From: Rhodococcus triatomae
Lineage (GTDB): Bacteria; Actinomycetota; Actinomycetes; Mycobacteriales; Mycobacteriaceae
Direction of reading: 5' to 3'
DNA length: 64,000 nt
NCBI RefSeq assembly: GCF_014217785.1
Contig: NZ_CP048814.1
Span: 1,054,001 to 1,118,000, forward strand
This document shows, in pieces, positions 7,041 to 37,916 of this stretch (position 1 is its first letter; each line of letters opens with the position of its first letter). The notes under the pieces are model-generated. The model was given only the letters and a program-made list of their open reading frames with translations. It had not been told where the DNA came from and searched no databases. Both the position numbers and the translations under genes were made by a program.

Positions 7041-9365
<2,325 letters not shown>

Positions 9366-9528
9366 TTATCTGGCAACTGGGTGCGTTCTACCAGGCTGTT
9401 CGATAACGAAACGGACATCACGGGCCGATGAAACGTCACCGTCCGAGATCGGCGCGTTCGCCTGCAGCTGGGCGAGTCGGCAGTAGGTTCTCGGAGGTTC
9501 CACTCGAGTACGTGTCCGACGAAAGCTG

Positions 9529-11007
9529 GTGTCACCCGTGAGCACAGGAAGCGCTCCTCCCACTCCCCCGTCCCGCCCCCGCAGGCGCCCGACGTGGCTT
9601 CTGCCCCTGCTCGTCCTGGCTCTGCTCACCGGGTTCTTCGCCCCGCACCTCGCCGCGGCCCAGCCGGGACGCACCTACACGATCGCGACCGACATCACCT
9701 TCGCGCCGTTCGAGTTCCAGGACGAGAGCGGCAACTTCGTCGGCATCGACATCGATCTGCTCGAAGCGATCGCGGACGACCAGGGTTTCCAGGTCGACAT
9801 CCGACCGCTCGGGTTCGACGCAGCCCTCCAGGCGGTGCAGTCCGGGCAGGCGGACGGGGTGATCGCCGGCATGTCGATCACCGACGAGCGACGGAGCGTC
9901 TTCGATTTCTCGGATCCGTACTTCGAGTCCGGCACCCAGATGGCAGTGCTCGAGTCGAACGACGCCGTGACCTCGTACGCGGACCTGCGCGGACAGCGCG
10001 TCGCGGTGAAGAACGGCACCGAGGGGGCCGCGTTCGCCGAGTCCATCAAGGACGAGTTCGGCTTCTCCACCATCTACTTCGCCGACTCGGCGAGCATGTA
10101 CGACGAGGTGCGTACGGGAAACTCGGTGGCGATCTTCGACGACTACCCCGTTCTCGCGTACGGCATCACCCAGGGCAACGGCTTCAAGACCGTCACCGAG
10201 AAGGAGGCCGGCAGCGAGTACGGCTTCGCCGTCAACCGGGGCCAGAACGCCGAGCTCCTGGAGATGTTCGATGCGGGGCTGCAGAACCTGCGGGATTCCG
10301 GTGAGTACGACGAGATCGTCGACCGCTACCTCGGAGCCGGTGCGAGCTCGGCCGACAACTCGATTCTCGGGCTGCTGAAGAGCACGTATCCGCAGTTGCT
10401 GAAGGGCCTGTGGCTGACGATCGTGCTGTCGGTGGTCTCGATCGCCATCGCACTGGTGCTGGGCGGGATCTTCGGGCTGATGCGCGTGTCACGCCACATC
10501 GTGCTCCGCGGCATCGGCACCACCTACGTGGACATCTTCCGAGGCACTCCACTGCTGGTCCAGGCGTTCTTCATCTACTTCGGCATACCCGCGGCCATGG
10601 GATTCCAGATGTCGGCGTTCACCGCGGGAATCATCACCCTCTCGCTCAACGCCGGCGCCTACATGGCCGAGATCGTGCGCGGCGGCATCCTGTCGGTCGA
10701 CAAGGGCCAGATGGAGGCGTCCCGCAGCCTGGGGATCAGCTACCTCAAGTCCATGCGCAAGGTCGTGATGCCGCAGGCGATCCGCACGATGATCCCGTCG
10801 TACATCAATCAGTTCGTCATCACGCTCAAGGACACGTCGATCCTGTCCGTGATCGGACTGGCCGAACTCACCCAGACCGGGCGCATCATCATCGCCCGCA
10901 ACTTCCAGTCCTTCAACATGTGGCTCATCATCGCTGTGATGTACTTCATCATCATCATGGCCCTGACGAAGCTGTCGAACCGCCTCGAGAAGAGGATCAA
11001 CACATGA
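9529..11007 (+). CDS. Amino acid ABC transporter, substrate-binding and permease fusion
   Basis: Single 492-residue polypeptide joining a family 3 solute-binding domain to a polar amino acid permease, as in GlnP-type proteins. A signal/anchor segment lies near residues 23-42. The binding domain at about 47-265 shows [15 protein letters not shown] and [14 protein letters not shown]. The permease part at about 285-490 carries the EAA loop [20 protein letters not shown]. The substrate is probably glutamine or another polar amino acid; a C4-dicarboxylate amino acid is not excluded. The start is GTG at 9529 or GTG at 9538. It overlaps the ATPase gene by 4 bp (ATGA). Confidence 0.93.
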
Positions 11008-11768
11008 CCGCGCCGAACGAGTCGTCACCGGTGACGGCCGAACCCAAGATCCGCGTCCGCGGCCTGAAGAAGGCCTTCGGCGACAACTTGGTCCTGGACG
11101 GAATCGACATCGACATCGCCTCCGGCGAGGTCGTGTGCGTCATCGGCCCGTCCGGCTCCGGGAAGAGCACCTTCCTCCGCTGCCTCAACCGCCTCGAGGA
11201 CATCACCGGCGGCTCGGTGATCGTCGACGGCACCGATGTGAGCGATCCCAAGGTGGACATCGACCGGGTACGCCAGCACATCGGCATGGTGTTCCAGCAC
11301 TTCAATCTGTTTCCGCACATGACAGCCGTCGAGAACGTGATGCTGGGCCCGGTGCAGACCAAGACAGCGACCAAGGACGAGGCCCGCGAGCGCGCCGTAC
11401 GCCTGCTCGGTCAGGTCGGTCTCGCGGAGAAGGTCGACGCGAGACCGGCCCAGCTGTCGGGCGGACAGAAGCAGCGGGTGGCCATCGCCCGCGCGCTCGC
11501 GATGCAGCCCGAGGTCATGCTCTTCGACGAGGCCACCAGTGCTCTGGACCCGGAGATGGTCGGCGAGGTACTCCAGGTCCTCCGCGACCTCGCACAGGGC
11601 GGCATGACGATGGTCGTCGTCACCCACGAGATGGGGTTCGCGCGTGAGGTCTCGGACCGGGTGATCTTCATGGCCGACGGGAACATCGTGGAGGAGGCGC
11701 CGCCGGCCGCCCTCTTCGGCGACCCCCAGCAACCACGCACGCGGGACTTCCTCGCGAAGGTGCTCTGA
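11004..11768 (+). CDS. Polar amino acid ABC transporter ATPase (GlnQ-like)
   Basis: A 254-residue ATPase with Walker [11 protein letters not shown]-loop [14 protein letters not shown], signature [15 protein letters not shown], Walker [15 protein letters not shown] and the switch His in VVVTHEM. It energises the preceding fused binding-permease protein. Its ATG at 11004 overlaps the upstream stop, so translation is coupled. It ends opposite the doxX gene, with a cruciform repeat between them. Confidence 0.95.
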
Positions 11769-11830
11769 CCGGGGCCTCGCGAGATCCTCTCGAGCCCCTT
11801 CCCTCCACTCCCGCTCCCCACCCCCTCGTG

Positions 11831-11879
11831 GGTGAATGGACCATTCGCCTCGTCAGACCGGGCGAATGGTCCACTCACC
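11831..11879. terminator. Long inverted repeat between convergent genes
   Basis: Arms of 19 bp (GGTGAATGGACCATTCGCC and its near complement, 18 of 19 matching) enclose an 11-base loop. Each arm contains its own palindrome, GAATGG-A-CCATTC, so a cruciform is possible. Its position between the glnQ-like and doxX stops fits a bidirectional terminator or a dispersed intergenic repeat. Confidence 0.65.
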
Positions 11880-11940
11880 CAGGAGATCAGGGGGGCGGGG
11901 ATCAGGGGGCGGGACCAGGCGAGAGGGAGAGCGTGAGGGG

Positions 11941-12366
11941 TCAGGCGGAGACGCGGGAGCGACCGCGGAACAGGATCGCGTCGAGGCTGAACTTGCCGGC
12001 GCCGACCGCGGCGAGCAGCAACGCGCCCATACCGAGGGCCAGGACCAGTTCGTATCCGCCGTCGGCGACCCAGATGCCGTTGTCGATGTGCACAATGAAG
12101 AACGCGCCCGCCATCACCAGGAACAGCAGGATTCCGGCGAGGGGGACGAGCAAGCCGGCGATCAGGGCGATACCACCGATGGTCTCGATGAACGCGGCGG
12201 CGTACGCACTCGCCGTGGGGGCCGGAACCTCCATCTGTTCGAAGGACGCGGCCGTGCCGTCCAGCCCCCACACCCGGAACTTCTGCAGTCCGTGCGCGAG
12301 GAAGATGACGCCGATGCCGATGCGGGCGATGAGGATGCCGATGCTGGGGACGACGGGAGTCTTCAT
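11941..12366 (-). CDS. DoxX family membrane protein
   Basis: A 141-residue protein with four hydrophobic segments. The DoxX signature is RIGIGVIFLAHGLQKF followed by AAAFIETIGGIALIAGLLVPLAGI. DoxX-like proteins of actinobacteria are linked to redox homeostasis and membrane-associated oxidoreductase complexes (as for DoxX of M. tuberculosis), but the substrate here is unknown. ATG at 12366 is preceded by an AAAGG site. Upstream lies a short palindrome that could be its operator. Confidence 0.88.
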   Translation of the reverse strand: MKTPVVPSIGILIARIGIGVIFLAHGLQKFRVWGLDGTAASFEQMEVPAPTASAYAAAFIETIGGIALIAGLLVPLAGILLFLVMAGAFFIVHIDNGIWVADGGYELVLALGMGALLLAAVGAGKFSLDAILFRGRSRVSA

Positions 12367-12450
12367 GGGGTGCTGGCCTTTCGTCGGGGGCAGCCGGTCG
12401 GAAACCAGCCTTCTGGTGGGGAACCCGCAACGAATCCTACGAGAGTTTAG

Positions 12451-12464
12451 GTTGAAGGTTCAAC
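12451..12464. promoter_or_regulatory. Palindrome upstream of doxX
   Basis: GTTGAAGGTTCAAC has perfect 6-bp arms (GTTGAA/TTCAAC) around GG, 85 bp upstream of the doxX start and touching the tatD stop codon. Its AT-rich surroundings suit a promoter/operator for doxX. No cognate regulator is evident nearby. Confidence 0.4.
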
Positions 12465-13307
12465 TTAATCGCGGAGCTGTCCCCATCCGTATACCCGCTC
12501 CGCGGTCGATGTAGCAGCGCGGGCGAGTTCCTCCGCGTCCTCTCCGCGCAACTCGGCGAGCGCACGGGCCGTGTACGGCAGGCAGTAGGGCTCGTTCGGG
12601 GCACCCCGGAACGGGTGCGGCGTCAGGAACGGCGCGTCGGTCTCCAGGAGCAATTGCCCCGGCGGCACCAGCGGTGCGGCCTCACGCAGCGCCTTGGCGT
12701 TCTTGAAGCTCACCGTGCCGGCGAAGCTGAGGACGTAGCCCGCGTCGATGCACTCACGCGCGGTCTCCGGCCCCGAGGAGAAACAGTGGAAGACCACCGT
12801 CTCCGGCGCTCCCTCCTCCCGCAGTACGCGCAGGACGTCGGCGTCCGCGTCCCGGTTGTGGATCATCAGCGTCTTGCCCAGCCGCTTGGCCAGGTCGATG
12901 TGCCAGCGGAAGCCCTCGATCTGCTCGTCGACCTCGGCGCAGCCGTCGAGTTTTCCCGGCCAGAAGTAGTCGAGCCCCGTCTCCCCCACCGCGACCACGC
13001 GCGGATCGCCGGCGAGGTGTTCGATCTCGCGGCGGGTGGCCTCGTCCAGCACGTCGGCCCGCGTGGGGTGGATGGCCACCGCGGCGAAGACCCGGTCGTC
13101 CCAGTGCGCCGCGTCCACCGCGAACCGCGCCGCATCGAGATCGTCCGCCACCGTCACCACGCGGCCCACTCCGACGCCGGCGGCCCGGTCGACGATCTCC
13201 TTCACCCCGGCCGCGTCGGTGGCACCGCACGCATCGAGGTGCGTGTGCGCGTCGACGAGTGGAGCCAGCGGTGCGGGCAGGGCCGGGGCGGGACGATCTG
13301 CGCTCAT
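12465..13307 (-). CDS. tatD: TatD family metal-dependent DNase
   Basis: TIM-barrel metal-dependent hydrolase of 280 residues. Metal-binding motifs are LVDAHTHLD at the N-terminus, the Glu in AVGETGLDYFW, HNRDADAD, and FHCFSSG, closing with LLLETDAPFL TPHP. TatD acts as a 3'-5' exonuclease or D-aminoacyl-tRNA-type hydrolase in different bacteria. ATG at 13307 is chosen because homology begins there; the frame upstream is non-homologous. It sits next to metG as in mycobacteria, although here a divergent SDR gene separates them. Confidence 0.93.
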   Translation of the reverse strand: MSADRPAPALPAPLAPLVDAHTHLDACGATDAAGVKEIVDRAAGVGVGRVVTVADDLDAARFAVDAAHWDDRVFAAVAIHPTRADVLDEATRREIEHLAGDPRVVAVGETGLDYFWPGKLDGCAEVDEQIEGFRWHIDLAKRLGKTLMIHNRDADADVLRVLREEGAPETVVFHCFSSGPETARECIDAGYVLSFAGTVSFKNAKALREAAPLVPPGQLLLETDAPFLTPHPFRGAPNEPYCLPYTARALAELRGEDAEELARAATSTAERVYGWGQLRD

Positions 13308-19075: not shown

Positions 19076-19947
19076 ACGCCGCGGACCTGTTCGCCGAGTA
19101 CCGACCGCTGCTGTTCACCGTCGCGTACGAGATCACCGGCTCCGCCACCGATGCGGAGGACGTACTCCAGGAGAGCTACCTTCGGGTCACGGAGGTGGAT
19201 ACCGACACCGTCGACAACGTCCGCGCCTACCTTGCCCAGGTCGTCACCCGACAGTCGCTCAACCTGCTGCGCAGCGCCCGGCGGCGCCGCGAGGAGTACG
19301 TGGGCAACTGGCTCCCCGAGCCGGTGCGCACCGGCCCCGACGCGGCCGCCGACGTGCTGCTGGCCGAATCGGTCTCGGTGGCCATGCTTCTGGTGCTCGA
19401 GACGCTCGGACCCGACGAACGCGCCGTGTTCGTGCTTCGGGAGGTCTTCGGATTCGGGTACGACGAGATCGCGCAGTCGATCGGGAAGAACACCGCCGCC
19501 GCACGGCAGATCGGTCACCGTGCACGCGAACACGTTCGGGCTCGACGCAAGCGGTTCGATCCGCCCGACGCCGAGACCGAGAAGATCACCGGCAAGTTCC
19601 TCGAGGTGGGGCTGACCGGAGACGTGCAGGGGCTCATGGATCTGCTCGCCCCGGACGCGGTGCAACTCTCCGACGGCGGCGGAAAGGTCTCCGCAGCACG
19701 AGTTCCCGTCGTCGGCGCCGAGCGAGTGGCACGTTTCGTCGCCGGCCTCGTCCGGATCGGCCTGCCCGACATGCGGGTCGAATCCACCCGTCTCAACGCG
19801 ATGCCCGCGCTGCTGGTGTACTCCGCGGAGGTGCTGGACGTGGCGATGATGTTCGAGGTGACCGGGGGCTTGATCACCGGCCTCTACATGGTCCGCAATC
19901 CGGACAAACTGACCGGCCTCGGACGGGACGTCGTCCTGGCGCGGTGA
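19072..19947 (+). CDS. ECF41-group RNA polymerase sigma factor (SigJ-like)
   Basis: A 291-residue sigma factor with region 2 (LFTVAYEITGSATDAEDVLQ) and region 4 (VFVLREVFGFGYDEIAQSIG), plus a C-terminal SnoaL-like domain. Three motifs diagnostic of ECF41 are present: NWLPEP in the linker, DGGGK in the SnoaL domain and NPDKL near the end. In this group the fused SnoaL domain replaces a separate anti-sigma factor and both activates and restrains the protein. It starts at GTG 19072, overlapping the oxidoreductase stop, so the two proteins are co-expressed. A matching promoter lies upstream of the pair. Confidence 0.93.
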   Translation: MNAADLFAEYRPLLFTVAYEITGSATDAEDVLQESYLRVTEVDTDTVDNVRAYLAQVVTRQSLNLLRSARRRREEYVGNWLPEPVRTGPDAAADVLLAESVSVAMLLVLETLGPDERAVFVLREVFGFGYDEIAQSIGKNTAAARQIGHRAREHVRARRKRFDPPDAETEKITGKFLEVGLTGDVQGLMDLLAPDAVQLSDGGGKVSAARVPVVGAERVARFVAGLVRIGLPDMRVESTRLNAMPALLVYSAEVLDVAMMFEVTGGLITGLYMVRNPDKLTGLGRDVVLAR

Positions 19948-27710: not shown

Positions 27711-28625
27711 TCAGCCGAGAAGCTTGTGCCTCAACGCGTCCAGGGTGTCGGTGCTCAGGCCCAGTCCCTCGGTCAGGTACGCATCCACGGACCCGTACCG
27801 GGCGTCGATCTCGTCGAGACCGGCTTGCAGGTAGCTGTCCTCGACACCGAGAAGGGGCTCGAACAGAATCGCTGCTTCCTCACCCTGGGTGGCGGCGATG
27901 TGCGCACGCGTCTTCGCGGCCCACTCCCGGTTGTACTCGTTGGTGAGCAGGTAGTCCTGCACGATCGTCGCGCGGTCGACACCCGCGAGGGACAGCAACA
28001 GCATCGACGTCCACCCGGTACGGTCCTTGCCCGCCGTGCAGTGGAACACCTGCCGTCCGTCGTTCTGGGCGAGTTCGGTGAGGAGACGAGTGAACCCGGC
28101 GCGCTCGGCGTCCCCGGCCACGAATGCACGGTTCATGTCCCGCATCATGTTCCGCGAGTCCTCGACGGAACCGATCTGGTCGATCATGTCCGCGATGTTC
28201 CCGGAGAGGATCGGGATACGGACGTATTCCACGCCCGCGGGCAGCCGATCCGGCTTCTCGGCGACCTCGTCGTCCGCGCGCAGGTCGTAGACGGCTGCCA
28301 GGCCGAGACGTTCGAGCGCCGCCAGGTCCGCGTCGTCCGGCACGATCGTGTCGGCTCGGTAGAGCACTCCCTTGTTCAGGTGGGTACCGCCGTGTCCGAC
28401 GTAGCCGGACCCGGTTCCCGCCACATCCCGGAAATTCGGGACGCTCGCCAGCCGGGGCGCGTCCGGGGCCGGTATCCCCAGGCTGCCGAACGAGAGCGAC
28501 CCCAGATCGAGTACGGGAGGTAGCGGTGGCGCCGGGGGCTGAGCCTGCGCGACTCCGGTGGTCACGGCTCCGAGCAGGGCGCTCGTCACGACGGCGGCGG
28601 CGAGGGTGGTCCGGGTTCGATTCAT
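27711..28625 (-). CDS. Secreted tyrosine/serine phosphatase (PtpB-like)
   Basis: A 304-residue protein with a cleavable signal peptide (ending VAQAQP) and a Pro-rich linker. The phosphatase domain begins VPNFRDVAGTGSG and has LYRADTI, VYDLRADDEV and the P-loop HCTAGKDRTGWTS with the catalytic Cys. This is the MptpB/LipA-like dual-specificity family, which includes exported phosphatases of M. tuberculosis. ATG at 28625. Two strong hairpins upstream separate it from the amine operon. Confidence 0.93.
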   Translation of the reverse strand: MNRTRTTLAAAVVTSALLGAVTTGVAQAQPPAPPLPPVLDLGSLSFGSLGIPAPDAPRLASVPNFRDVAGTGSGYVGHGGTHLNKGVLYRADTIVPDDADLAALERLGLAAVYDLRADDEVAEKPDRLPAGVEYVRIPILSGNIADMIDQIGSVEDSRNMMRDMNRAFVAGDAERAGFTRLLTELAQNDGRQVFHCTAGKDRTGWTSMLLLSLAGVDRATIVQDYLLTNEYNREWAAKTRAHIAATQGEEAAILFEPLLGVEDSYLQAGLDEIDARYGSVDAYLTEGLGLSTDTLDALRHKLLG

Positions 28626-28747
28626 CGTGCACCTTCCGAATGTGGGGTATGCCACACGGAAGGTAGAGCGGGGTGTTCGCCCAGCGCGCCGGGTTCTCCC
28701 GCCCAATGGAACACCGGGAACCGAACAGAATCGGCAGCCGCACAACG

Positions 28748-28821: not shown

Positions 28822-28856
28822 GGTCTGATCCGGTCCGGTCCGGTCCGGATCAGACC
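28822..28856 (-). terminator. Hairpin overlapping the mauF-like stop codon
   Basis: GGTCTGATCCGG and CCGGATCAGACC form perfect 12-bp arms around an 11-base loop made of TCCGG repeats. The right arm covers the stop codon at 28850-28852. Confidence 0.6.
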
Positions 28857-29704
28857 AGGACGGCCACTGCAGCGAACGCGGCCAGCCCCACCAGCACCGC
28901 GCCGGTCAGCGTCTGCACCCGACGGTCGACCACGCACATCGCCGACAGGAAGCCGGGCATCGAGCCGCCACGACGCGTGTGGACGACGGCCAGCAGGCTC
29001 GGCATGCACCGGCCCAGCGATACGAGGGTGAACAGCGCGGCGCCCCACAGCGGAGACCCGGCAGCCACCACTCCCAGCACGAGCAGGTAGTACGCGCTGG
29101 AGCGGATGAAGATCACGAAGCCGGGGCCGATCATCGCACCGAACAGCAGCGACACCTTCCACGGCTGCATGGATCGGCGCAGCTCACGGGGCAGCTGACG
29201 CCGACGCATCGGCGTCGGCATCCGCACCAGGCCCAACTCGTGCAGCCCGTACGCGAAGGCCAGGGCCGCCCAGACCACCAGCGCCGCGGACAGGGACATC
29301 CACCCGGCGGCGACCGCGCCGAACGCGCCGAGCAACGCGCCGGTCGGGGCTCCCGTCGCGACGGAACCGAGGGCGTGCCAGCCGAGTCGGCGGACCGGCG
29401 TCGAGGCCCCCTCGCGATCGGGCTGCTTGGGCGCCGCCACGACACCGGCGACCGACATCCCGCACGTCGACCAGTTGGCGGCGAGCGCGGTCACCGATCC
29501 CGCCCCGACGAGGGAAGCAGTGAGCGCCGCCGCCGTGGTCGGGGCGGTGAGAGCGGCGGCCCCTGCGCCCAGCAGGCCCGCCCCCACGACGAGTACCGCC
29601 CGCGCCGAGGCGGGAACCGCGGCGGCGAGGCCGGGCCGGATGTCAGGGAGGTCGGTGGCCAGGGGTGGGTGGGACAGCGCTCGGGGTGGCAGAACTGTGG
29701 TCAT
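28850..29704 (-). CDS. mauF: MauF-like polytopic membrane protein
   Basis: A 284-residue protein with about six to seven hydrophobic segments and a Cys at WSTCGMSVAGVVA, then SLLFGAMIGPGFVIFIRSSAYYLLVL and SLGRCMPSLLAVVHTR. The layout is that of MauF, a CcdA/DsbD-like membrane protein needed for amine dehydrogenase maturation. It is the last gene of the mau operon, 96 bp after the second cupredoxin. The family call leans on context as well as on the sequence. Confidence 0.7.
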   Translation of the reverse strand: MTTVLPPRALSHPPLATDLPDIRPGLAAAVPASARAVLVVGAGLLGAGAAALTAPTTAAALTASLVGAGSVTALAANWSTCGMSVAGVVAAPKQPDREGASTPVRRLGWHALGSVATGAPTGALLGAFGAVAAGWMSLSAALVVWAALAFAYGLHELGLVRMPTPMRRRQLPRELRRSMQPWKVSLLFGAMIGPGFVIFIRSSAYYLLVLGVVAAGSPLWGAALFTLVSLGRCMPSLLAVVHTRRGGSMPGFLSAMCVVDRRVQTLTGAVLVGLAAFAAVAVLV

Positions 29705-29800
29705 GGGAATCTCCTCCGAAGATGTTGTCGATGTGGGACTTCCGGCCGCGGAGGCCGGTCTCGGCGGGCACCTCGTGCCCGGTGGCGGGTCGGTGGCGGG

Positions 29801-30148
29801 TCAGTCGTCGGTGACTGTCACGGCGCCGACCATGTATCGGTGGACGGAGCAGGTGTACTCGTAGACGCCCGGCCGCTCGAAGGTGTGGGTGAAACTGCCC
29901 GCACCGGTGACCCCACTGTCGAACTCTCCCGGCGCCCCGACCTGGTGGAGCAGACCACCGTCCTCGAACTCCCAGCGCACGCTCCCACCCGTGGGAATCG
30001 TGACCTCCGACGGCCCGAAGGCCAGGTGTCCGACCGTCACGACGGCATCCGGTTCGGCCGCGCCCGGCCCGCAGGCCACCGCGGACACGAGCGCCACGGA
30101 GAGCACGAACGTCACCTCGCCGCGCCGAACCGGACGACACCCGCTCAT
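29801..30148 (-). CDS. Lipoprotein cupredoxin (second copper protein)
   Basis: A 115-residue protein with lipobox AVAC near residue 26 and one cupredoxin domain. The type 1 copper ligands are visible as His68 (LLHQV), Cys100, His103 and Met106 in CSVHRYM. It likely carries electrons outside the membrane, alongside the amicyanin encoded just upstream, whose stop it overlaps (ATGA). The ligand loop CxxHxxM has the short spacing of amicyanin. Confidence 0.88.
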   Translation of the reverse strand: MSGCRPVRRGEVTFVLSVALVSAVACGPGAAEPDAVVTVGHLAFGPSEVTIPTGGSVRWEFEDGGLLHQVGAPGEFDSGVTGAGSFTHTFERPGVYEYTCSVHRYMVGAVTVTDD

Positions 30149-30489
30149 TGCACGATGACCGTTCCGACCATCGCGGGATGCGGGGTGCAGTGGTACGAGA
30201 ACGTTCCTGCCTCCTCGAATGTGTACGAATACGTTCCCTCGGTGAGTAATTCGCTCCTCAGCGTCTCGCCGAGCGCGCCGTCCCCGACGACGTCGTGGGG
30301 CAGTCCGCTGTCGTCGAACTGCCATTGCACCGTCTGCCCCTTCTCGATCGTCACGGTGGCCGGCGAGTACGCCATGTTCTTCACCTCGACGACGACGGCC
30401 GGTTCGGCCGAGGACGCGTCCGCTCCGGAGCACGCGGACACGGTGAACGCGGCCAGGGAGGCGACGAGCAGAGCGAGCAGCTTCTTCAT
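30145..30489 (-). CDS. mauC: Amicyanin-like lipoprotein
   Basis: A 114-residue type 1 copper protein. After the lipobox VSAC (Cys20) comes a cupredoxin domain with His65 (LPHDVV), and Cys101, His104, Met107 in YHCTPHPAMVG. That loop is very close to the Paracoccus amicyanin end, YHCTPHPFMRG (from memory). Amicyanin is the direct electron acceptor of TTQ amine dehydrogenase. The lipobox indicates anchoring to the outer membrane face, unlike the soluble periplasmic amicyanin of proteobacteria. It follows the multicopper oxidase gene by 10 bp. Confidence 0.9.
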   Translation of the reverse strand: MKKLLALLVASLAAFTVSACSGADASSAEPAVVVEVKNMAYSPATVTIEKGQTVQWQFDDSGLPHDVVGDGALGETLRSELLTEGTYSYTFEEAGTFSYHCTPHPAMVGTVIVQ

Positions 30490-30499
30490 GACGATCCTC

Positions 30500-32101
30500 T
30501 CAACGGATGTACCGCAGGTTCGCGGTCATTCCGGCTTCGAAGTGATATGCGTTGTGGCAATGGAACATCCATTCACCCGGGTTGTCGGCGTCGAACTCGA
30601 TCGCGAGTTCCGTCCCGGGCAGGACGTTGACCGTGTCCCGGCGAAGACCCCCGTACTCTCCGACGGCGAAGGTGTGGCCGTGAGTGTGCATCGGATGCCA
30701 CATGGTGGAGGTGTTCGTCATCGTGATCCGAATCCGCTCGCCCTCACGCATGATCAGCTTTCCGGCATCCACCCCCGCCATCCCCCAGACGTAGCGGTCG
30801 CCCGCCTGGATCAGTTCCACCCGATAGTCACGATCGGGCTCGCGGCGCTCGAGCGTCACCGACTCCGCGGGGCGCAGTTCACTCTCTGCCAGCAGCCGAC
30901 CGGCGAGCTCCGGGATCGAGCCCCCCACATCGGGATTCGCCATCGGTGCGGCATCGTCGGTACGCAGGACCGTGGAGGCATAGCCGTCCCGACCCTCGAC
31001 CTTCGCGACGACCGGCCACGTGCCGGATGCCACCGTCACCAGCACGTCGTACCGTTGCGCCATACCGATGATCAAGGTGTCCGTCGTCCGGGGAACAGTG
31101 TCGAACCCGTCGGCCGCGACCACCGTCATCTCGTGGCCGGCCACCGCGAAACGGTACGGAGTCTCCGCGGCGGCGTTGACGACACGCAGCCGGAGCCGGC
31201 TGCCCGGGGGCACCACGATCGGATCCGGATCATTCGGCGGGCGGCCGTTGATCAGGTGCAGCGGATAGGCGACGTGCTGGGTCATCCCACCCAGCGGCAC
31301 CGAGTTCCCGTGCCCGGCCGAGATGAGCTCGACGGCGACGGCCATCTCGGAGTCGGTATGTGTGGCCGGGGTACTCGATCCCCCGTGTCCCCCGTGTCCG
31401 CCGTGTCCCCCCGAGATGTCGGGGTTGAGCGCCATGAGCACGGCCTCGGGCGTGGTACCCATGCCGTCGACCCAGTCGTCGAGAACGAGCACGGCATCGA
31501 CGTCGGCACCGGTCGTGTCGTCCGGGTCCTCCACCACGAAGGCCCCGAACAACCCCCGGTCCGCCTGCAGCCCACTGTGCGAGTGATACCAGTGCGTACC
31601 GGGATCGGGGACGACGAAGCTGTAGTCGAACGTCGTGCCGGGCCGGATCGGCGGCTGGGTGACCGGTGCAGCTCCGTCCATGTCGTTGCGGATCCGGATT
31701 CCGTGCCAGTGCAGCGTGGTGTCGGCATCCAGCCCGTTCGCGACCGTGACGTCGACGCGGTCCCCCTTCGTCATCCGCAACTCGGGAGCGACCGCGTTAC
31801 CCCCGTACGCCCACGTGTCCACCAGCCGGCCGCCCAGGTCCACCGTGGCGAACCCGGCGGACAGCGCGAATGCGGCTACGTCACCGCTCGTCTCGCGCGC
31901 CGCCTCCGCAGCGGCCACTTCCGGGTCGGTCGGCAGGATGTAGTCGAGATCGGCCGCCGCCGACTGTGCCCCGGACGAATCCGGGCTACAGCCGGCGGCG
32001 CCGAACCCGAGGGCACCGAGACCCACCGCCCCGGCACCGAGTGAGCCGAGAGCGAGGAACCGGCGCCGGCCGAGCACCGACCCGTTGTCGGGTCGTGTCA
32101 T
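30500..32101 (-). CDS. Tat-exported multicopper oxidase lipoprotein
   Basis: Three-domain multicopper oxidase of 533 residues. The N-terminus combines a twin-arginine signal (GRRRFLALG) with a lipobox (GAAGC, Cys38). The copper sites are HWHG at 131-134, HWYHSH at 170-175, HPMHTHGHTF and HCHNAYHFEAGM near the C-terminus, giving type 1, 2 and 3 coppers. A GGHGGHGGHGG tract at residues 231-241 could bind extra metal. It overlaps the stop of mauB (ATGA) and precedes amicyanin, so it belongs to the amine operon. It could accept electrons from amicyanin and reduce oxygen, or take part in cofactor maturation; both are inference. Confidence 0.93.
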   Translation of the reverse strand: MTRPDNGSVLGRRRFLALGSLGAGAVGLGALGFGAAGCSPDSSGAQSAAADLDYILPTDPEVAAAEAARETSGDVAAFALSAGFATVDLGGRLVDTWAYGGNAVAPELRMTKGDRVDVTVANGLDADTTLHWHGIRIRNDMDGAAPVTQPPIRPGTTFDYSFVVPDPGTHWYHSHSGLQADRGLFGAFVVEDPDDTTGADVDAVLVLDDWVDGMGTTPEAVLMALNPDISGGHGGHGGHGGSSTPATHTDSEMAVAVELISAGHGNSVPLGGMTQHVAYPLHLINGRPPNDPDPIVVPPGSRLRLRVVNAAAETPYRFAVAGHEMTVVAADGFDTVPRTTDTLIIGMAQRYDVLVTVASGTWPVVAKVEGRDGYASTVLRTDDAAPMANPDVGGSIPELAGRLLAESELRPAESVTLERREPDRDYRVELIQAGDRYVWGMAGVDAGKLIMREGERIRITMTNTSTMWHPMHTHGHTFAVGEYGGLRRDTVNVLPGTELAIEFDADNPGEWMFHCHNAYHFEAGMTANLRYIR

Positions 32102-33423
32102 TCGATCACCTGCGGGGTGAGCAGGGTCCCGAGATCGTCCACGTTGCCGGAGACGTCGGCGGAACTGACCTGTGCGCCGTCCTCCGCGGCGATCCCGACG
32201 ATCTTCTGACCCGATTCGCCGTCCTGTTCCGGACCACTGCCGAGAACGTACAGCGTCTTTCCGTCCACCGAGAAGGTCGTGCTGTCGATGGAAGTGAGCC
32301 CCAGGGCCTCGAGATCGAGGCTCGCGACGGTGGCGAGTCCCTCGGCGTCGAACAACTCGATCCTCACGACGTCTCCGGCGCGCGCCGAGTGTGGATGCAC
32401 CACGGAATCGGTGTACTCGATCGCGATCCGGGTGCCGTCGGCGGAGATCGTGTTCTCGGCGAACCGGCCTCCGTCCCGGCCGGCGTTGCCGATCGGAGCG
32501 ATCTCCGATTCCGGGAGGCCGTCGGAGAAGTCGAAGACGTAGACGTCCCCGTTCGCTCCCACCAGCAGAGCGGAATCGGCGTCCGCCGCCCAGGCCGCCT
32601 TGCGGTTGCTCACGAAGTCGTCCGGGAGCACTGCGCTGCGCGCGGTCTCGGACGGCACACCCGAGTCGTCGATGCCGACGTGCAGCAACTCGCCGGTGTC
32701 CTCGCACACGCTGTACAGCTCGTGTCCGACCATCCAGGTGAACGGACCACAGCCGATCACCTGAAGAGACCCGCTCTCCTCCTTCGCCTCGAGGTCGACG
32801 ACCCTGATGCCGTAGAGGCCGTCGTCCCACGTGACGAAGTACCTGCCGTCCGACGTCACCGCGTTCGAACCCGGGCGCGAATGCACGCGGGCGTAGTCCG
32901 GCAGCAACACCTCGTCGGGTTCGATCAGGTTGCCGGAGTATGTGGTGACGGTGAAGTCCGCGGCGCCACGGGATCCGCGTGGACGCCACACCTCGGCGGC
33001 GAGCACCGCGGGATCGCTCGACTGCTCGCCGACGAAGCCGTGGATGACCGGGTCCCAGATTCCCGGCCCCACCACGATCCGGCTTCCGGCGACGCCGGTG
33101 ACCGGGTCGATGACGTTGACGCCGAGTTCGAGCTTTCCGAAACCTCCTGCCACGGCGAGTAGTTCGTTCGGACCGATCGGATCGATCTCGTTGGTGTAGA
33201 CCTTCTCCGGGATCTCTCCGATCTCCTGGTCCTCGGATCCGACGGTGATGCCGTCCTCGGGCGGAATGACCGGGACCGTCTGATAGGTGACCTCGCCCGA
33301 CGACGACGGCTCGTCGTCGTTCGACCCGCATCCCGTCAGTACCACCAGTGCGGTGACCGGAACGAGAACCGCGGCCGAACGGACGAAGGTCCGTCCGGAC
33401 ACCTGCCGGGAACGACGTGTCAT
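32098..33423 (-). CDS. mauB: Amine dehydrogenase heavy chain (MauB-like), lipoprotein
   Basis: A 441-residue exported beta-propeller protein. It has an RSAAVLVPVTALVVLTGC lipoprotein signal and then repeated blades (AVTSDGRYFVTWDDGLYGIRVVDLEAKEE style). The family pattern includes RPRGSRGAADFTVTTYSG and the final TFSVDGKTLYVLGSG. It forms the large subunit holding the TTQ light chain. It starts at ATG 33423 overlapping the mauA stop and ends overlapping the oxidase start, so A, B and the oxidase are translationally coupled. Substrate could be methylamine or an aralkylamine. Confidence 0.87.
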   Translation of the reverse strand: MTRRSRQVSGRTFVRSAAVLVPVTALVVLTGCGSNDDEPSSSGEVTYQTVPVIPPEDGITVGSEDQEIGEIPEKVYTNEIDPIGPNELLAVAGGFGKLELGVNVIDPVTGVAGSRIVVGPGIWDPVIHGFVGEQSSDPAVLAAEVWRPRGSRGAADFTVTTYSGNLIEPDEVLLPDYARVHSRPGSNAVTSDGRYFVTWDDGLYGIRVVDLEAKEESGSLQVIGCGPFTWMVGHELYSVCEDTGELLHVGIDDSGVPSETARSAVLPDDFVSNRKAAWAADADSALLVGANGDVYVFDFSDGLPESEIAPIGNAGRDGGRFAENTISADGTRIAIEYTDSVVHPHSARAGDVVRIELFDAEGLATVASLDLEALGLTSIDSTTFSVDGKTLYVLGSGPEQDGESGQKIVGIAAEDGAQVSSADVSGNVDDLGTLLTPQVIE

Positions 33424-34085
33424 GATCCCGCCCCCACCTTCGGCCGCACCGCCGGGGTGACCTGGCAGTCCTCGCCGATGATGGGAGCCATCGTGCAGGT
33501 GTAGGACTGGGACTCGTCCGACACGCACCAGATGATCTCCTGGTCGTAGCTGCCCGACACGGGGTTGTACATGATCGCCTGCGTGTCGGGCTCGCCGCAG
33601 AACGCGTTCGAACAGGACGGCGCGCCACAGCAGTCGTAGTAGGCGATGAGATAGGTCTTCCCGTCGTCGGGATCGGTACAGCATCCGACCCAGAACTCGG
33701 CGCCGGGCTTGGAACCCGGAGCGCAGGTGGTGACGCCGCCACCGTTGCAGGCGGCACAGGACGTACCGTCCATGTTGCACCAGCGCCAGTACTCGCATTC
33801 GGCGGGATCGTGTCCGTCGAAGTCGAGCAGTTGAGGCTCGCCCCCGCCTTCCGGCGCGGGCGTCTCCTGGGCGAATGCACTGCGCGTGACGGGAAGTGAG
33901 CTGATCAGCGCGACACCGGACACCCCCATCGTCCAGCGTCCGATGCGGCTGATCATCGACCGCCGCGAGACCCTCTCGGACATCCTCCGGGTGGCTCGGC
34001 TGGCGAACGTTCCGCCCTTTCCCGCCATCCACTCGGACTGTTCCCGGACGGTGTTCTCGTCCACCGGGTAGCGGTTCTCGTACAT
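33420..34085 (-). CDS. mauA: TTQ amine dehydrogenase light chain (MauA-like)
   Basis: A 221-residue precursor with a long leader carrying a twin-arginine element (RRSMISRIGRW near residue 41) and a probable cleavage after AFA. The mature part is Cys-rich with the family signature CEYWRWCNMDGTSC, then FWVGCC, KTYLIAYYDCCG and EIIWCVSDE. Trp132 and Trp186 match the two tryptophans crosslinked to tryptophan tryptophylquinone in Paracoccus. The mature chain has 14 Cys; the classical enzyme has 12 (six disulfides). It makes the catalytic subunit oxidising primary amines to aldehydes and ammonia. It follows mauD by 47 bp. Confidence 0.93.
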   Translation of the reverse strand: MYENRYPVDENTVREQSEWMAGKGGTFASRATRRMSERVSRRSMISRIGRWTMGVSGVALISSLPVTRSAFAQETPAPEGGGEPQLLDFDGHDPAECEYWRWCNMDGTSCAACNGGGVTTCAPGSKPGAEFWVGCCTDPDDGKTYLIAYYDCCGAPSCSNAFCGEPDTQAIMYNPVSGSYDQEIIWCVSDESQSYTCTMAPIIGEDCQVTPAVRPKVGAGS

Positions 34086-34132
34086 GTTTCCGTCGTCCAA
34101 CGACTTCTCCGATCGTGAGTGAGTTCCCCAGG

Positions 34133-34741
34133 TCACGCGGATGCGCGAGCAGTGGCGTGTGAGTGCAGGTGTTGCAGCGACGGCGTACCGGATTCCAGTG
34201 CGTTGAGCAGGCTTTCGACCTGTGCCATGTGATTGCACAATCCCTTGGCGCGGATCTTGCCGTGCTCGTCGAGGATCACCCCGTACGGTGTGGTGCCGAT
34301 CTGGTAGGCGATACCGACGTCGCGGGCATCGACGTAGCCGAGCTCGTCCCCTATATTGCTGCCGGCGAGAAATTCCTCGTGCTCCTCCGACGTACCGTCC
34401 GAGACGATGACGACGTCGATCCCCTTCTCGGCCTTGGCCATCGCTCGGACACCGGGGAGCAGGCTCTTGCAGGTCGAGCACGTCGGCGCGGTGAACAGCA
34501 GCAGTTGCGCCCTGTCGCGGTGGCCACCGACGGCGACCTCACGCCCGAGGTGGTCGACGAGGCCCCGGAAGGACGGGCCGGCCTGTTCGAGCTTCGGGCC
34601 GGTGTCCATCATCCTCGCCCCCAGGGGGCCGAGCCGCACGTGCACCCGGCCGATCTCTCGGGCCAGCGCGAGCACCATGAGGAAGAGGACGGTGACGGCG
34701 ATCGCGAGCACGGCGATCGCGACGAGGAGAAACGTGGTCAT
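34133..34741 (-). CDS. mauD: MauD-like thioredoxin-fold maturation protein
   Basis: A 202-residue protein with an N-terminal membrane anchor (residues 4-28) and an external thioredoxin-like domain containing Cys88 and Cys91 in TAPTCSTCKSLLP. The cis-Pro region is GTTPYGVILDEHGKI. MauD is needed for disulfide formation in the Cys-rich light chain. ATG at 34741 follows mauE by 32 bp. Confidence 0.92.
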   Translation of the reverse strand: MTTFLLVAIAVLAIAVTVLFLMVLALAREIGRVHVRLGPLGARMMDTGPKLEQAGPSFRGLVDHLGREVAVGGHRDRAQLLLFTAPTCSTCKSLLPGVRAMAKAEKGIDVVIVSDGTSEEHEEFLAGSNIGDELGYVDARDVGIAYQIGTTPYGVILDEHGKIRAKGLCNHMAQVESLLNALESGTPSLQHLHSHATARASA

Positions 34742-34773
34742 GGCATCGGTCCTGTCGTCGTGGAGAGTGCGTA

Positions 34774-35352
34774 CTACCGGAGTGGTTCGAGCGCCCGCAG
34801 CGAGGTGGAGGCGGGAGACAGGTGGTCGTCCACCGGCCGTCGGCCGAGGGACACCACCGCGCGCAGCTGCGCGAAAGCCGCTGACGCGGAGAGGAACAAC
34901 GCAGCAGCGGCGACACCGGCGAGATGTTCGAGGACGCCGGCTCCGGCACCTGCCGTCACCGCGAGTGCGACGGACGTCAGCGCGAGGGCACCGGCCCGCG
35001 CGGCATGGAACCAGCCGATACGGGGCACGTCGTCCGAGCCACCGAACGCGAAGCACCCGCAATCGAGGTCCCGGCGACCACGCACGAGGTTGATCGTGAG
35101 ACCGGCGAAGAAGGCCAGGAACAGTGCCGCCGCGGCGAGTGCCGCCCAGGTCCGGGCGATCCCGAGGATCAGCGCTCCTCCGACGACGATCTCGGCGATC
35201 GGGAGCAGCCTCGCGACCGCGGCCTCGACCGGGGCAGGAAGCAGCGCATATCCCTGGACGGCTGTCAGCAGCCCGGCGCGGTCTCGGAGTTTCGGTAGGC
35301 CCGCGAGCACCAGCGTTCCGCCGAGCACCGACGCCACAGTCACCCAGATCAT
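34774..35352 (-). CDS. mauE: MauE-like membrane protein
   Basis: A 192-residue membrane protein of the DoxX-like/MauE fold with four hydrophobic segments and a Cys pair in RDLDCGCFAFGGSDDVPR. MauE works with MauD in light-chain disulfide formation. ATG 35352 is preceded by a GGGAC site. It is the first gene of the amine operon and faces the APC permease across 243 bp. Confidence 0.9.
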   Translation of the reverse strand: MIWVTVASVLGGTLVLAGLPKLRDRAGLLTAVQGYALLPAPVEAAVARLLPIAEIVVGGALILGIARTWAALAAAALFLAFFAGLTINLVRGRRDLDCGCFAFGGSDDVPRIGWFHAARAGALALTSVALAVTAGAGAGVLEHLAGVAAAALFLSASAAFAQLRAVVSLGRRPVDDHLSPASTSLRALEPLR

Positions 35353-35595: not shown

Positions 35596-37128
35596 GTGAC
35601 AGCAGCACTCCGGGCGGCCATCGCCCGATCACACGACGCCGATCGGACTCCGGATCCGGTGTACTCCCCGCTGCATGCCCTCGGGCGAAGGCAGCTGTCA
35701 CCGATCGACCTTCTCGGGCAGTCCCTCTCGACCATCGCCCCCGCCACCGGAATGGTCTTCATCGCCCTGTGGATGGTCTCGCACCAGCCGGGCGTGACGG
35801 GGTTGGCCGCCATCGCCGCCACCACCGCGGTGGTGAGCCTGGTCGCCGTCTGCATCACCCAATTCACCCGACGGCTGGCGGCGGCGGGTTCGCTCTACAG
35901 TTTCGTGTTCCAGGGCCTGAGCGCGCGCGCAACCCTGACCACCGGGACCGCACTGCTGCTCGGCTATCTCGGGATCTCGATCTCGGTACTCGCCAACGCG
36001 GCGGACAGTCTGCTGGGTGTCGCGGTGGCGCTCGGACACCGGCCGCCTCAGCCGGGCGCACAGCTGGCCGTCGTCGCACTGATCGCCGTCACGGTGACAG
36101 TCATCGCGGTCCGTGGGGTGCGGTTCGCGACCCGGGCGATCCTCGTCGTCGAGATCTGCTCCCTCGCACTGATCGTCGCGGTCATGATCGGTTCCCCCGC
36201 GGAGGCGTCCACGGCCGCTGCGGTCCCGCATTCGCCGATGAGCATCATGCCCTTCCTGGCGATGCTCACGGTGCTGAGCATGGCGGGATTCGAGAGTTCC
36301 GCATTCTTCGGCCCCGAGGCGAAACGTCCGCTCGCAACCGTGTCACGGACCGTACTCATCTCCCCGGTGATCTGCGGGGCACTGTTCGTGTTCGCCGCGT
36401 GGGCTGCGCTGGCCGGACACGGCTCCGTCATCGTCGGCGCCTACTTCGAGGGCACCGCGTCGGGGGCGAGCGTCGAACTGGTCCTGGCCGTCAAGATCGG
36501 GATGACCTGCTCCTGGTTCGCTTCCACTCTCGGATGTGCTCAGGCCGGTTCCCGGCTGCTCTACTCGATGGGGGTCGAGCGAGTACTGCCGACGTCGCTG
36601 GCGCGGGTGCACCGCCGCTTCCGCACCCCGTACGTCGCGGTGACGACGTTCACCGTCGCCGGGCTCGGTGGCGCACTGCTCTTCTCGCTCACCGTCCTGG
36701 GTGACGCGGCCGGATTCAACGGTGTCGTCGAGATCGCCTTGGTCTCCGCCTACACTCTCGTCGCCGCGGCGTCCCTGCGATTCCTGAACCGGATCGGCGA
36801 ACACACCGTACTCAGCCGAGCCGCCGCGGTCGCCGTCACCCTGGTGGGCGGGTCGCTGCTGGTGTACATCGTCGTCGACGGAGTGGCGCACCGATTCTGG
36901 GCGGTTCCCGCCGCGCTGGTGACGATCGCCCTGTCCGGGACCGTCTGGTACCGCATCCTCCGCAGGGTCCGCCCCGACAGCCTCGCGACCATCGGAGCAT
37001 TCGACAGCGTCGAGACCGCGGACATCCTTCCCGGCGCGGGACGGCTCGTCATCGACGACGACGGCCGCAGACGCATCCTGCCCGACCCCGGGCCGGGGCC
37101 CCACGTGGCCGGCGGGGATCGGCCGTGA
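35596..37128 (+). CDS. APC family amino acid/amine permease
   Basis: A 510-residue protein with about twelve hydrophobic segments in the amino acid-polyamine-organocation pattern: SPIDLLGQSLSTIAPATGMVF, then GFESSAFFGPEAKRPLATVSRTVLISP in the middle. The C-terminal 40 residues are hydrophilic. GTG 35596 has a GACGAGG site. Its stop overlaps the IclR start (GTGA). Divergence from the amine dehydrogenase operon suggests import of the primary amine substrate or its amino acid precursor. Confidence 0.9.
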   Translation: MTAALRAAIARSHDADRTPDPVYSPLHALGRRQLSPIDLLGQSLSTIAPATGMVFIALWMVSHQPGVTGLAAIAATTAVVSLVAVCITQFTRRLAAAGSLYSFVFQGLSARATLTTGTALLLGYLGISISVLANAADSLLGVAVALGHRPPQPGAQLAVVALIAVTVTVIAVRGVRFATRAILVVEICSLALIVAVMIGSPAEASTAAAVPHSPMSIMPFLAMLTVLSMAGFESSAFFGPEAKRPLATVSRTVLISPVICGALFVFAAWAALAGHGSVIVGAYFEGTASGASVELVLAVKIGMTCSWFASTLGCAQAGSRLLYSMGVERVLPTSLARVHRRFRTPYVAVTTFTVAGLGGALLFSLTVLGDAAGFNGVVEIALVSAYTLVAAASLRFLNRIGEHTVLSRAAAVAVTLVGGSLLVYIVVDGVAHRFWAVPAALVTIALSGTVWYRILRRVRPDSLATIGAFDSVETADILPGAGRLVIDDDGRRRILPDPGPGPHVAGGDRP

Positions 37129-37916
37129 CGTCGGCGTCGCCGGGGCATTCGCCGAGTGGCACCGGGCGTGGTAGCGGCTCCACGGCACAGCATTTCAGTG
37201 GGCAGCAGCCACGAGCGGTGCAGAAGGCGCTCGGCATGCTCGAGGCCGTCGCGCGGCTCGGGCCCGGCACGTCGGCGAAGGAGATCGCGAAGTTCGCCGG
37301 AGTACCCACCACCACGGCGTACCGGATGCTGAACCTCCTCGTCGCAGACGGTTTCCTGGTCCGGGTACCCGATCTGTCCGGCTTCGCCCTGGGGCGACGT
37401 ACCGCCGAGCTCGCACACGCCGCGACGGAGAGCGAACCGGACATCTCGCTCCACGACGTGGTCGAGGAACTGCGCGGCCACACCCGATTCGGGCTGCACG
37501 TCGCCTCGTTCGGAGGCGGCCGGCTCCGGCTCGTGGACAAGGACCCCGACCACGAGATCATCGCGATCTCGACTCTTGCGAAGGACCTGCACGCCAACGC
37601 CCTGGGCAAGCTCCTCCTCGCCCACGACCCGAGCGTGCGGCCCGACCCCGAGTTGAGGCGTCTCACCGAGCACACCGTCGACGACCCCGTTCTGCTCGAC
37701 CGGGAACTGTCGACCATCCGATGCGACGGATATGCGGTGGAGAACCAGGAGTCACGGCTCGGACGCGCGGCTCTGGCGGTCCCGATCCGGGACCAGCTCG
37801 CCGTCGTCGTCGGCGGCCTCTACGTGCAGGGTTCGGTCGAGCGCGTCACCGCCCGCGATCGCGAACTCGTGCAGTTCCTCTTCGACGGAGCCCGTCGGCT
37901 GACCGGCCTGATCTGA
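37125..37916 (+). CDS. IclR family regulator
   Basis: A 263-residue regulator with a winged helix (VQKALGMLEAVARLGPGTSA, EIAKFAGVPTTTAYRMLNLL) and an IclR effector domain ending AVPIRDQLAVVVGGLYVQG. It overlaps the permease stop by 4 bp and so is co-expressed with it. It likely controls the permease operon and the divergent mau operon in response to an amine-derived metabolite. The first 25 residues are Gly/Ser-rich and poorly conserved in type. Confidence 0.9.
   Translation: MTSASPGHSPSGTGRGSGSTAQHFSGQQPRAVQKALGMLEAVARLGPGTSAKEIAKFAGVPTTTAYRMLNLLVADGFLVRVPDLSGFALGRRTAELAHAATESEPDISLHDVVEELRGHTRFGLHVASFGGGRLRLVDKDPDHEIIAISTLAKDLHANALGKLLLAHDPSVRPDPELRRLTEHTVDDPVLLDRELSTIRCDGYAVENQESRLGRAALAVPIRDQLAVVVGGLYVQGSVERVTARDRELVQFLFDGARRLTGLI

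Follow-up and report, generated by a model that had tools for sequence, protein, structure and literature searches.

An actinobacterial operon for a predicted tryptophan tryptophylquinone amine dehydrogenase with a multicopper oxidase and no MauG-family gene

The window analyzed here is a stretch of 64,000 nucleotides from the genome of Rhodococcus triatomae (contig NZ_CP048814.1, positions 1,054,001 to 1,118,000). Its minus strand carries an eight-gene operon, running from 35352 to 28850, that comprises mauE, mauD, mauA, mauB, a multicopper oxidase gene, two blue-copper protein genes and a mauF-like gene. The mau genes point to an amine dehydrogenase of the tryptophan tryptophylquinone (TTQ) type. 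An earlier note on this DNA had described the same gene order on one strand, with ATGA overlaps between mauA and mauB, mauB and the oxidase gene, and the amicyanin and second cupredoxin genes; the order was confirmed and all three overlaps were verified in the sequence. The mauB, oxidase, amicyanin and second cupredoxin genes are consecutive, joined by two ATGA overlaps and one 10-base gap.

The operon and its actinobacterial relatives

The light chain gene, mauA (33420..34085), encodes 221 aa from an ATG, with a twin-arginine-like signal. Its product matches PF02975 (E 1.2e-31), and its best PDB matches are the light chains of methylamine dehydrogenase (MADH) and aromatic amine dehydrogenase (AADH), with a score below the NCBIfam equivalog cut-off for MADH proper (TIGR02659, 123.2 bits vs 196.85). 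In the alignment, two tryptophans match MADH positions 57 and 108, and two aspartates match positions 32 and 76, which we take to be the residues named Trp57, Trp108, Asp32 and Asp76. Thus, the light chain does retain both TTQ tryptophans, as had been claimed from the sequence of this locus. The heavy chain gene, mauB (32098..33423), encodes a beta-propeller protein of 441 aa with a lipobox-like signal; predicted fold and sequence agree that it is of the MADH-type propeller class. Taken together, these sequence features and the fold model point to a TTQ-type amine dehydrogenase encoded by the operon.

The accessory genes were assigned with varying support. The MauD-like thiol-disulfide protein (34133..34741, 202 aa) is 42% identical to Paracoccus MauD and matches TIGR02661 at E 4.7e-50 (169.7 bits vs a cut-off of 188.6). 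The MauE-like membrane protein (34774..35352, 192 aa) matches PF07291 at E 2.2e-23 when read from a longer start. The mauF-like gene (28850..29704) encodes a membrane protein of 284 aa for which no Pfam or NCBIfam match was found; it was named from its position and from weak alignments, 28% identical over 242 residues to Indioceanicola MauF and 31% over 84 residues to Paracoccus MauF. Both partners of the MADH type, amicyanin and MauF, are present on these grounds, amicyanin being recognized by its PDB match (E 1.6e-16). This amicyanin-like type 1 copper protein (30145..30489, 114 aa, lipobox-like signal; PF00127 E 4.1e-13) falls under the NCBIfam amicyanin equivalog cut-off. The second cupredoxin (29801..30148, 115 aa, lipobox-like signal) matches PF00127 at E 1.3e-6, and a Cys-x2-His-x2-Met copper loop is seen in its translation. 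The oxidase (30500..32101) is a three-domain protein of 533 aa with a twin-arginine and lipobox-like signal.

The distribution of such loci was surveyed with PF02975. Matches over cut-off were obtained in 44 of the 401 genomes of the same family, R. triatomae included, and in R. triatomae only among 396 genomes sampled across the phylum. In the family of Planctomonas, 1 genome out of 398 was positive, Planctomonas itself, and no other mau locus was found there. Weak matches in three genomes (G070, G236 and G446) were all under the curated cut-off. Named genomes, when scanned, contributed 37 loci, and the 43 other genomes of the family gave 13 further ones, making 50 distinct loci besides the window (40 of the 43 family loci were fetched, 27 of them being DNA of named loci; the three unfetched were also named). 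Two loci, L065 and L067, end after mauB, leaving 48 long enough to show the oxidase.

The oxidase gene directly follows mauB in 47 of these 48 loci, and a chance neighbourhood of oxidase and mau genes was rejected on this count. The oxidase-bearing loci belong to Rhodococcus, Prescottella, Nocardia, Dietzia, Kineococcus, Microbacterium and Actinacidiphila. The order mauE-D-A-B-oxidase-amicyanin-cupredoxin-mauF is shared by the complete loci of Rhodococcus, Prescottella, Nocardia and Microbacterium and by L097 and L102, which group with Dietzia. In Kineococcus, mauF is placed between mauA and mauB, and the Actinacidiphila locus (L058) has the oxidase with one cupredoxin only. MauD, MauE and MauF are encoded wherever a locus extends far enough; MauE, 44-62% identical, is present in 36 of the 37 named loci, the remaining one (L066) starting at mauA. 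Among the 51 light chains compared, the Trp57 stretch and both Asp stretches are conserved in all, and the Trp108 stretch in 50, the exception being L065, a 3 kb draft contig in which this stretch lies in a shifted frame.

A second oxidase and cupredoxin pair was observed in R. erythropolis (L035) and Rhodococcus sp. P-2 (L036). Encoded on the opposite strand, it starts at 19565 of each locus, a few kb beyond the downstream end of the mau operon, and is cut by the locus end.

Search for MauG and c-type cytochromes

Work in Paracoccus has made MauG the textbook enzyme of TTQ formation. PMC7876137 and PMC6405878 agree with MauG-based TTQ formation. As described in the former, MauG acts on a mono-hydroxylated precursor, the first hydroxylation being thought to be autocatalytic.

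The earlier note had seen no MauG in the operon and had proposed a genome-wide search for a homologue. The R. triatomae genome is a single contig of 4.77 Mb, rated 100% complete, and a search of all of it with the PF03150 profile (MauG/CCP family) returned no match, so the absence extends to the whole genome by this profile; the homologue elsewhere in the genome that would have refuted the note's inference was not found. As controls, the same profile recovered Paracoccus MauG at 8.2e-45 and the Indioceanicola protein at 4.6e-54. Paracoccus MauG used as query found nothing in this genome at E up to 10, in a search that had no positive control; the absence of MauG therefore rests on PF03150. With the same profile, a MauG-family match was found in none of the 51 distinct mau-bearing actinobacterial genomes, some of which are drafts (the 44 family genomes, including R. 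triatomae, plus 10 others, 3 of which repeat the 44). Judged from gene content, a putative TTQ-type dehydrogenase system free of MauG is thus present in several actinobacterial families, well beyond R. triatomae.

The lack of MauG within the operon is not distinctive by itself. No MauG turned up in eight plasmid stretches from proteobacteria whose clusters are of aau type or similar (L069, L071-L074, L125, L126 and L128, of 12-18 kb each, searched by tblastn with two MauG-family proteins; these genomes were covered within the stretches only, and L073, which is without annotation, is of unsure cluster type). Both MADH-type clusters examined, L070 and L127, have a MauG-family protein.

Potential electron acceptors were searched for in R. 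triatomae with PF13442 and PF00034. The sole c-type cytochrome above the two cut-offs is QcrC, which has two haem motifs and whose gene stands between genes read as ctaE and qcrA. No soluble c-type cytochrome acceptor was found in this genome with these two models. Matches under the cut-offs were located at G000:C1:1286129 (E 0.13; at 1286132, E 0.14, in a second search), 2689362 (0.22) and 1443845 (0.6). Around the first of these, three open reading frames of at least 200 aa were found, none cytochrome-like by eye. In Microbacterium stercoris (L063, 18764-19564), a protein with two CxxCH motifs that resembles QcrC is encoded about 8 kb from mauA.

Role of the multicopper oxidase

The oxidase fits the three-domain laccase-like class, with the ligand sets of a single type 1 copper and of a trinuclear centre. 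The motifs HWH, HSH, HPMHxH and HCHxxxHxxxxM are intact in 48 of 48 sequences, axial Met included; this count includes two sequences missed by the pattern whose ligands are intact. Since the copper ligands are invariant, the oxidase should reduce O2. Its pairwise divergence over 47 sequences tracks that of MauB (r 0.91, with 0 of 2000 permutations as high) and of MauA (r 0.92). Strain relatedness contributes to these values, and the correlation therefore shows shared inheritance, not function. Lipobox-like motifs are found in the oxidase (48/48), MauB (50/51), amicyanin (46/49) and the second cupredoxin (41/49, including three loci where the query matched the amicyanin gene), and would hold the electron chain at the membrane face.

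The best NCBIfam model for the oxidase is copper_res_A, below its cut-off. The nearest paralogue in the same genome is 42% identical and adjoins two copper-type P-ATPases (named by eye); the mau oxidase has a Gly/His-rich stretch where this paralogue is Met-rich. This Met-rich paralogue and the two P-ATPases are part of what by eye is a copper island, outside the window in the R. triatomae genome (L130, 4545-14001), which also encodes a response regulator and a DUF305-like protein.

Planctomonas deserti provides a natural variant. Its locus (L064, about 8200-13299) contains mauE, mauD, mauA, mauB, one amicyanin gene and mauF, with neither oxidase nor second cupredoxin; about 95 bases separate mauB from the amicyanin gene. 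Both TTQ tryptophans are kept and the dehydrogenase, amicyanin and mauF genes are intact. The draft genome gave no PF03150 match, and its sole Cu-oxidase_2 protein lies elsewhere and shares 25% identity with the mau oxidase along half the length. In a four-protein tree, whose deeper nodes are weak (40/54 in one case), L064 is sister to the oxidase-bearing Microbacterium L063 (support 100/97), among oxidase-bearing lineages. The absence of the oxidase is therefore most simply explained by a loss. Thus, the oxidase is not kept wherever the dehydrogenase persists without MauG, as indicated by this one draft genome.

Altogether, we lean, though only moderately, towards an actinobacterial branch of TTQ dehydrogenases in which the oxidase is a built-in O2-reducing outlet and TTQ is made without a MauG-family protein. 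A MauAB-type enzyme located outside the cell membrane would oxidize a primary amine, after MauD and MauE, and probably MauF, had helped to fold and oxidize its disulfide-rich light chain. Electrons would leave TTQ one at a time for the amicyanin-like protein and, where it occurs, the second cupredoxin, and reach the membrane-anchored multicopper oxidase, which would reduce O2 to water. Such an outlet would serve a bacterium whose genome yielded no soluble c-type cytochrome. MauD, MauE and MauF would be the candidates remaining in the operon for TTQ formation, and a catalyst encoded outside the operon is possible. The joint loss of oxidase and second cupredoxin in Planctomonas, where the dehydrogenase is kept, fits a dispensable outlet.

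The earlier note had offered two roles for the oxidase, that of an O2-reducing acceptor bypassing soluble cytochromes and that of a substitute for MauG. The acceptor role fits the data: QcrC is the only cytochrome found in R. triatomae, and the oxidase has kept its copper ligands and been inherited with MauA and MauB. The second role is disfavoured. An oxidase that carried out the crosslink, second oxygen and quinone oxidations yielding TTQ would account for its place after mauB in almost all loci of a group of genomes devoid of MauG-family matches, and for the history that it shares with MauB. Planctomonas argues against it, with a complete dehydrogenase gene set and both tryptophans after loss of the oxidase, no MauG-family match, and just one distant Cu-oxidase_2 protein, while its sister L063 has the oxidase. 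An intact dehydrogenase after this loss favours an electron-outlet role over MauG replacement: it would be hard to square with a TTQ-maker and easy with one of several outlets. The Planctomonas enzyme may nevertheless be inactive despite its intact genes. An axial Met ligand gives a low-potential type 1 copper. Its conservation here suggests such a potential, to be set against the value of about 1 V put on tryptophan oxidation by MauG in PMC6405878. We therefore regard MauG replacement as improbable. We find it just as improbable that the oxidase does both, completing TTQ on the exported light chain with O2 and draining the electrons of the mature enzyme; in that case, some other substitute would be required in Planctomonas.

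Two further explanations leave TTQ formation aside. Amicyanin could deliver its electrons to the bcc-aa3 supercomplex, at QcrC or the CuA site, with the oxidase as a mere side branch for overflow or protection. The presence of QcrC and the oxidase-free Planctomonas locus speak for this route, but it leaves the retention of the oxidase in 47 of 48 operons unexplained; we consider it unlikely, if the least so of the alternatives. Alternatively, the oxidase might be a copper-handling enzyme that receives no electrons from the dehydrogenase, its task being Cu(I) oxidation or the management of copper for both cupredoxins. The copper_res_A match, the 42% identical paralogue beside P-ATPases and the Gly/His-rich stretch are in line with this. 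Cuprous oxidases carry a Met-rich stretch, however, which this oxidase does not have; its place beside an amine dehydrogenase is constant in several families, and the copper island already provides this genome with an oxidase. We consider a pure copper-handling role about as improbable as MauG replacement.

Several points weigh against the oxidase as the electron outlet. Shared inheritance alone would also yield the r value observed between oxidase and MauB. The second cupredoxin was not seen in L058 or L064; it looks optional because Actinacidiphila L058 has the oxidase with one cupredoxin, and it would thus not be an obligatory link in the chain. Were the oxidase the sole outlet, Planctomonas could not work; amicyanin would have to be able to reach the bcc-aa3 chain or another acceptor. 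The copper-type P-ATPases next to the 42% identical paralogue make a copper-related role for the oxidase possible. Finally, the case for the electron path is genomic, and the search for soluble cytochromes covered the R. triatomae genome only.

A description of this actinobacterial operon was not found in the open-licence literature searched, subscription literature being outside the scope; among the papers covered, one on Acidihalobacter (PMC5216662) holds amicyanin, multicopper oxidase and methylamine dehydrogenase together. The conservation of the TTQ tryptophans in actinobacteria of several families, with no MauG-family match in any of 51 genomes, implies either that TTQ can be made in another way or that these residues serve something else. 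Genetically tractable rhodococci that possess the operon, together with the oxidase-free Planctomonas, make the need for MauG in TTQ synthesis directly addressable. An amine dehydrogenase with its own O2-reducing oxidase might also act as a cytochrome-free amine-sensing module.

The operon is flanked by two genes on the plus strand. An APC-family permease gene (35596..37128; TIGR00909 E 2.5e-10, far below its cut-off) is divergent from the operon and perhaps co-regulated with it. It is followed by a gene for an IclR-family regulator (37125..37916; TIGR02431 E 2e-20, below its cut-off), a candidate for control of the mau operon. Both were found in L058 and in those Nocardiaceae loci whose flanks reach far enough, weakly in L063, and not in L062, L064, L097 or L102. 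They alone stood out as recurring neighbours beyond the operon, and neither names a substrate; one of the neighbour surveys, built on rough gene predictions, gives counts that are too low, since it overlooks the window's own oxidase and MauD. Just downstream of mauF, at 27711-28640 of the window, lies a gene for a secreted protein, tyrosine-phosphatase-like by eye, with no NCBIfam match.

Comparison with known tryptophylquinone systems

The light chains were compared in an unrooted tree of 26 rows. One long, fully supported branch parts 17 actinobacterial rows from 9 proteobacterial rows of MADH or aau type; with branches of such length, the deeper order is unreliable. One Rhodococcus record, L049, is labelled Cyanobacteriota (Chroococcidiopsidaceae); its light chain groups with Rhodococcus, and the label looks wrong.

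The operon resembles the mau cluster of Paracoccus denitrificans (L070) in its homologues of MauE, MauD, MauA, MauB, amicyanin and MauF, and its dehydrogenase resembles P. denitrificans MADH in both TTQ tryptophans, the active-site aspartates and the MauB fold. It differs from that cluster in having no MauG and in adding a multicopper oxidase, a second cupredoxin and lipobox-like signals; no mauJ-like or ferredoxin genes were seen beside it. Its light chain is 33-38% identical to those of MADH and is set on a long branch of its own.

A stretch of a Thermomicrobium roseum plasmid (L129, 780-8197) holds an annotated PF02975 protein and an unannotated MauA-like stretch near a 596 aa protein that ends in MauE; no mauB is annotated in these 12 kb. 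The Chimaeribacter arupi plasmid L074 (6574-11890) carries an aau-type cluster with a distant oxidase, possibly an independent pairing; this is one of eight stretches and a lead only. As in the window, the oxidase gene directly follows the TTQ dehydrogenase cluster. Its oxidase is distant from that of the window (35% identical over 141 residues and 24% over 256), two cytochrome-like genes are present and the light chain is of aau type.

Quinohaemoprotein amine dehydrogenase (cysteine tryptophylquinone, CTQ; QhpG flavoprotein) offers a parallel, as a peptidyl tryptophylquinone made without MauG according to PMC7876137; in the present operon, TTQ is predicted. The aau clusters, such as that of the P. 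aeruginosa plasmid L069, share with the operon heavy and light chains, MauE and MauD, and have no MauG in the stretch seen. They differ from it by carrying small c-type cytochromes, and their light chains lie across the long branch from the actinobacterial ones. By tblastn, amicyanin and MauF were not found in the eight stretches of aau-type or similar clusters, and an oxidase only in L074. The missing MauG is of the aau kind, and the operon partners amicyanin and MauF are of the MADH kind.

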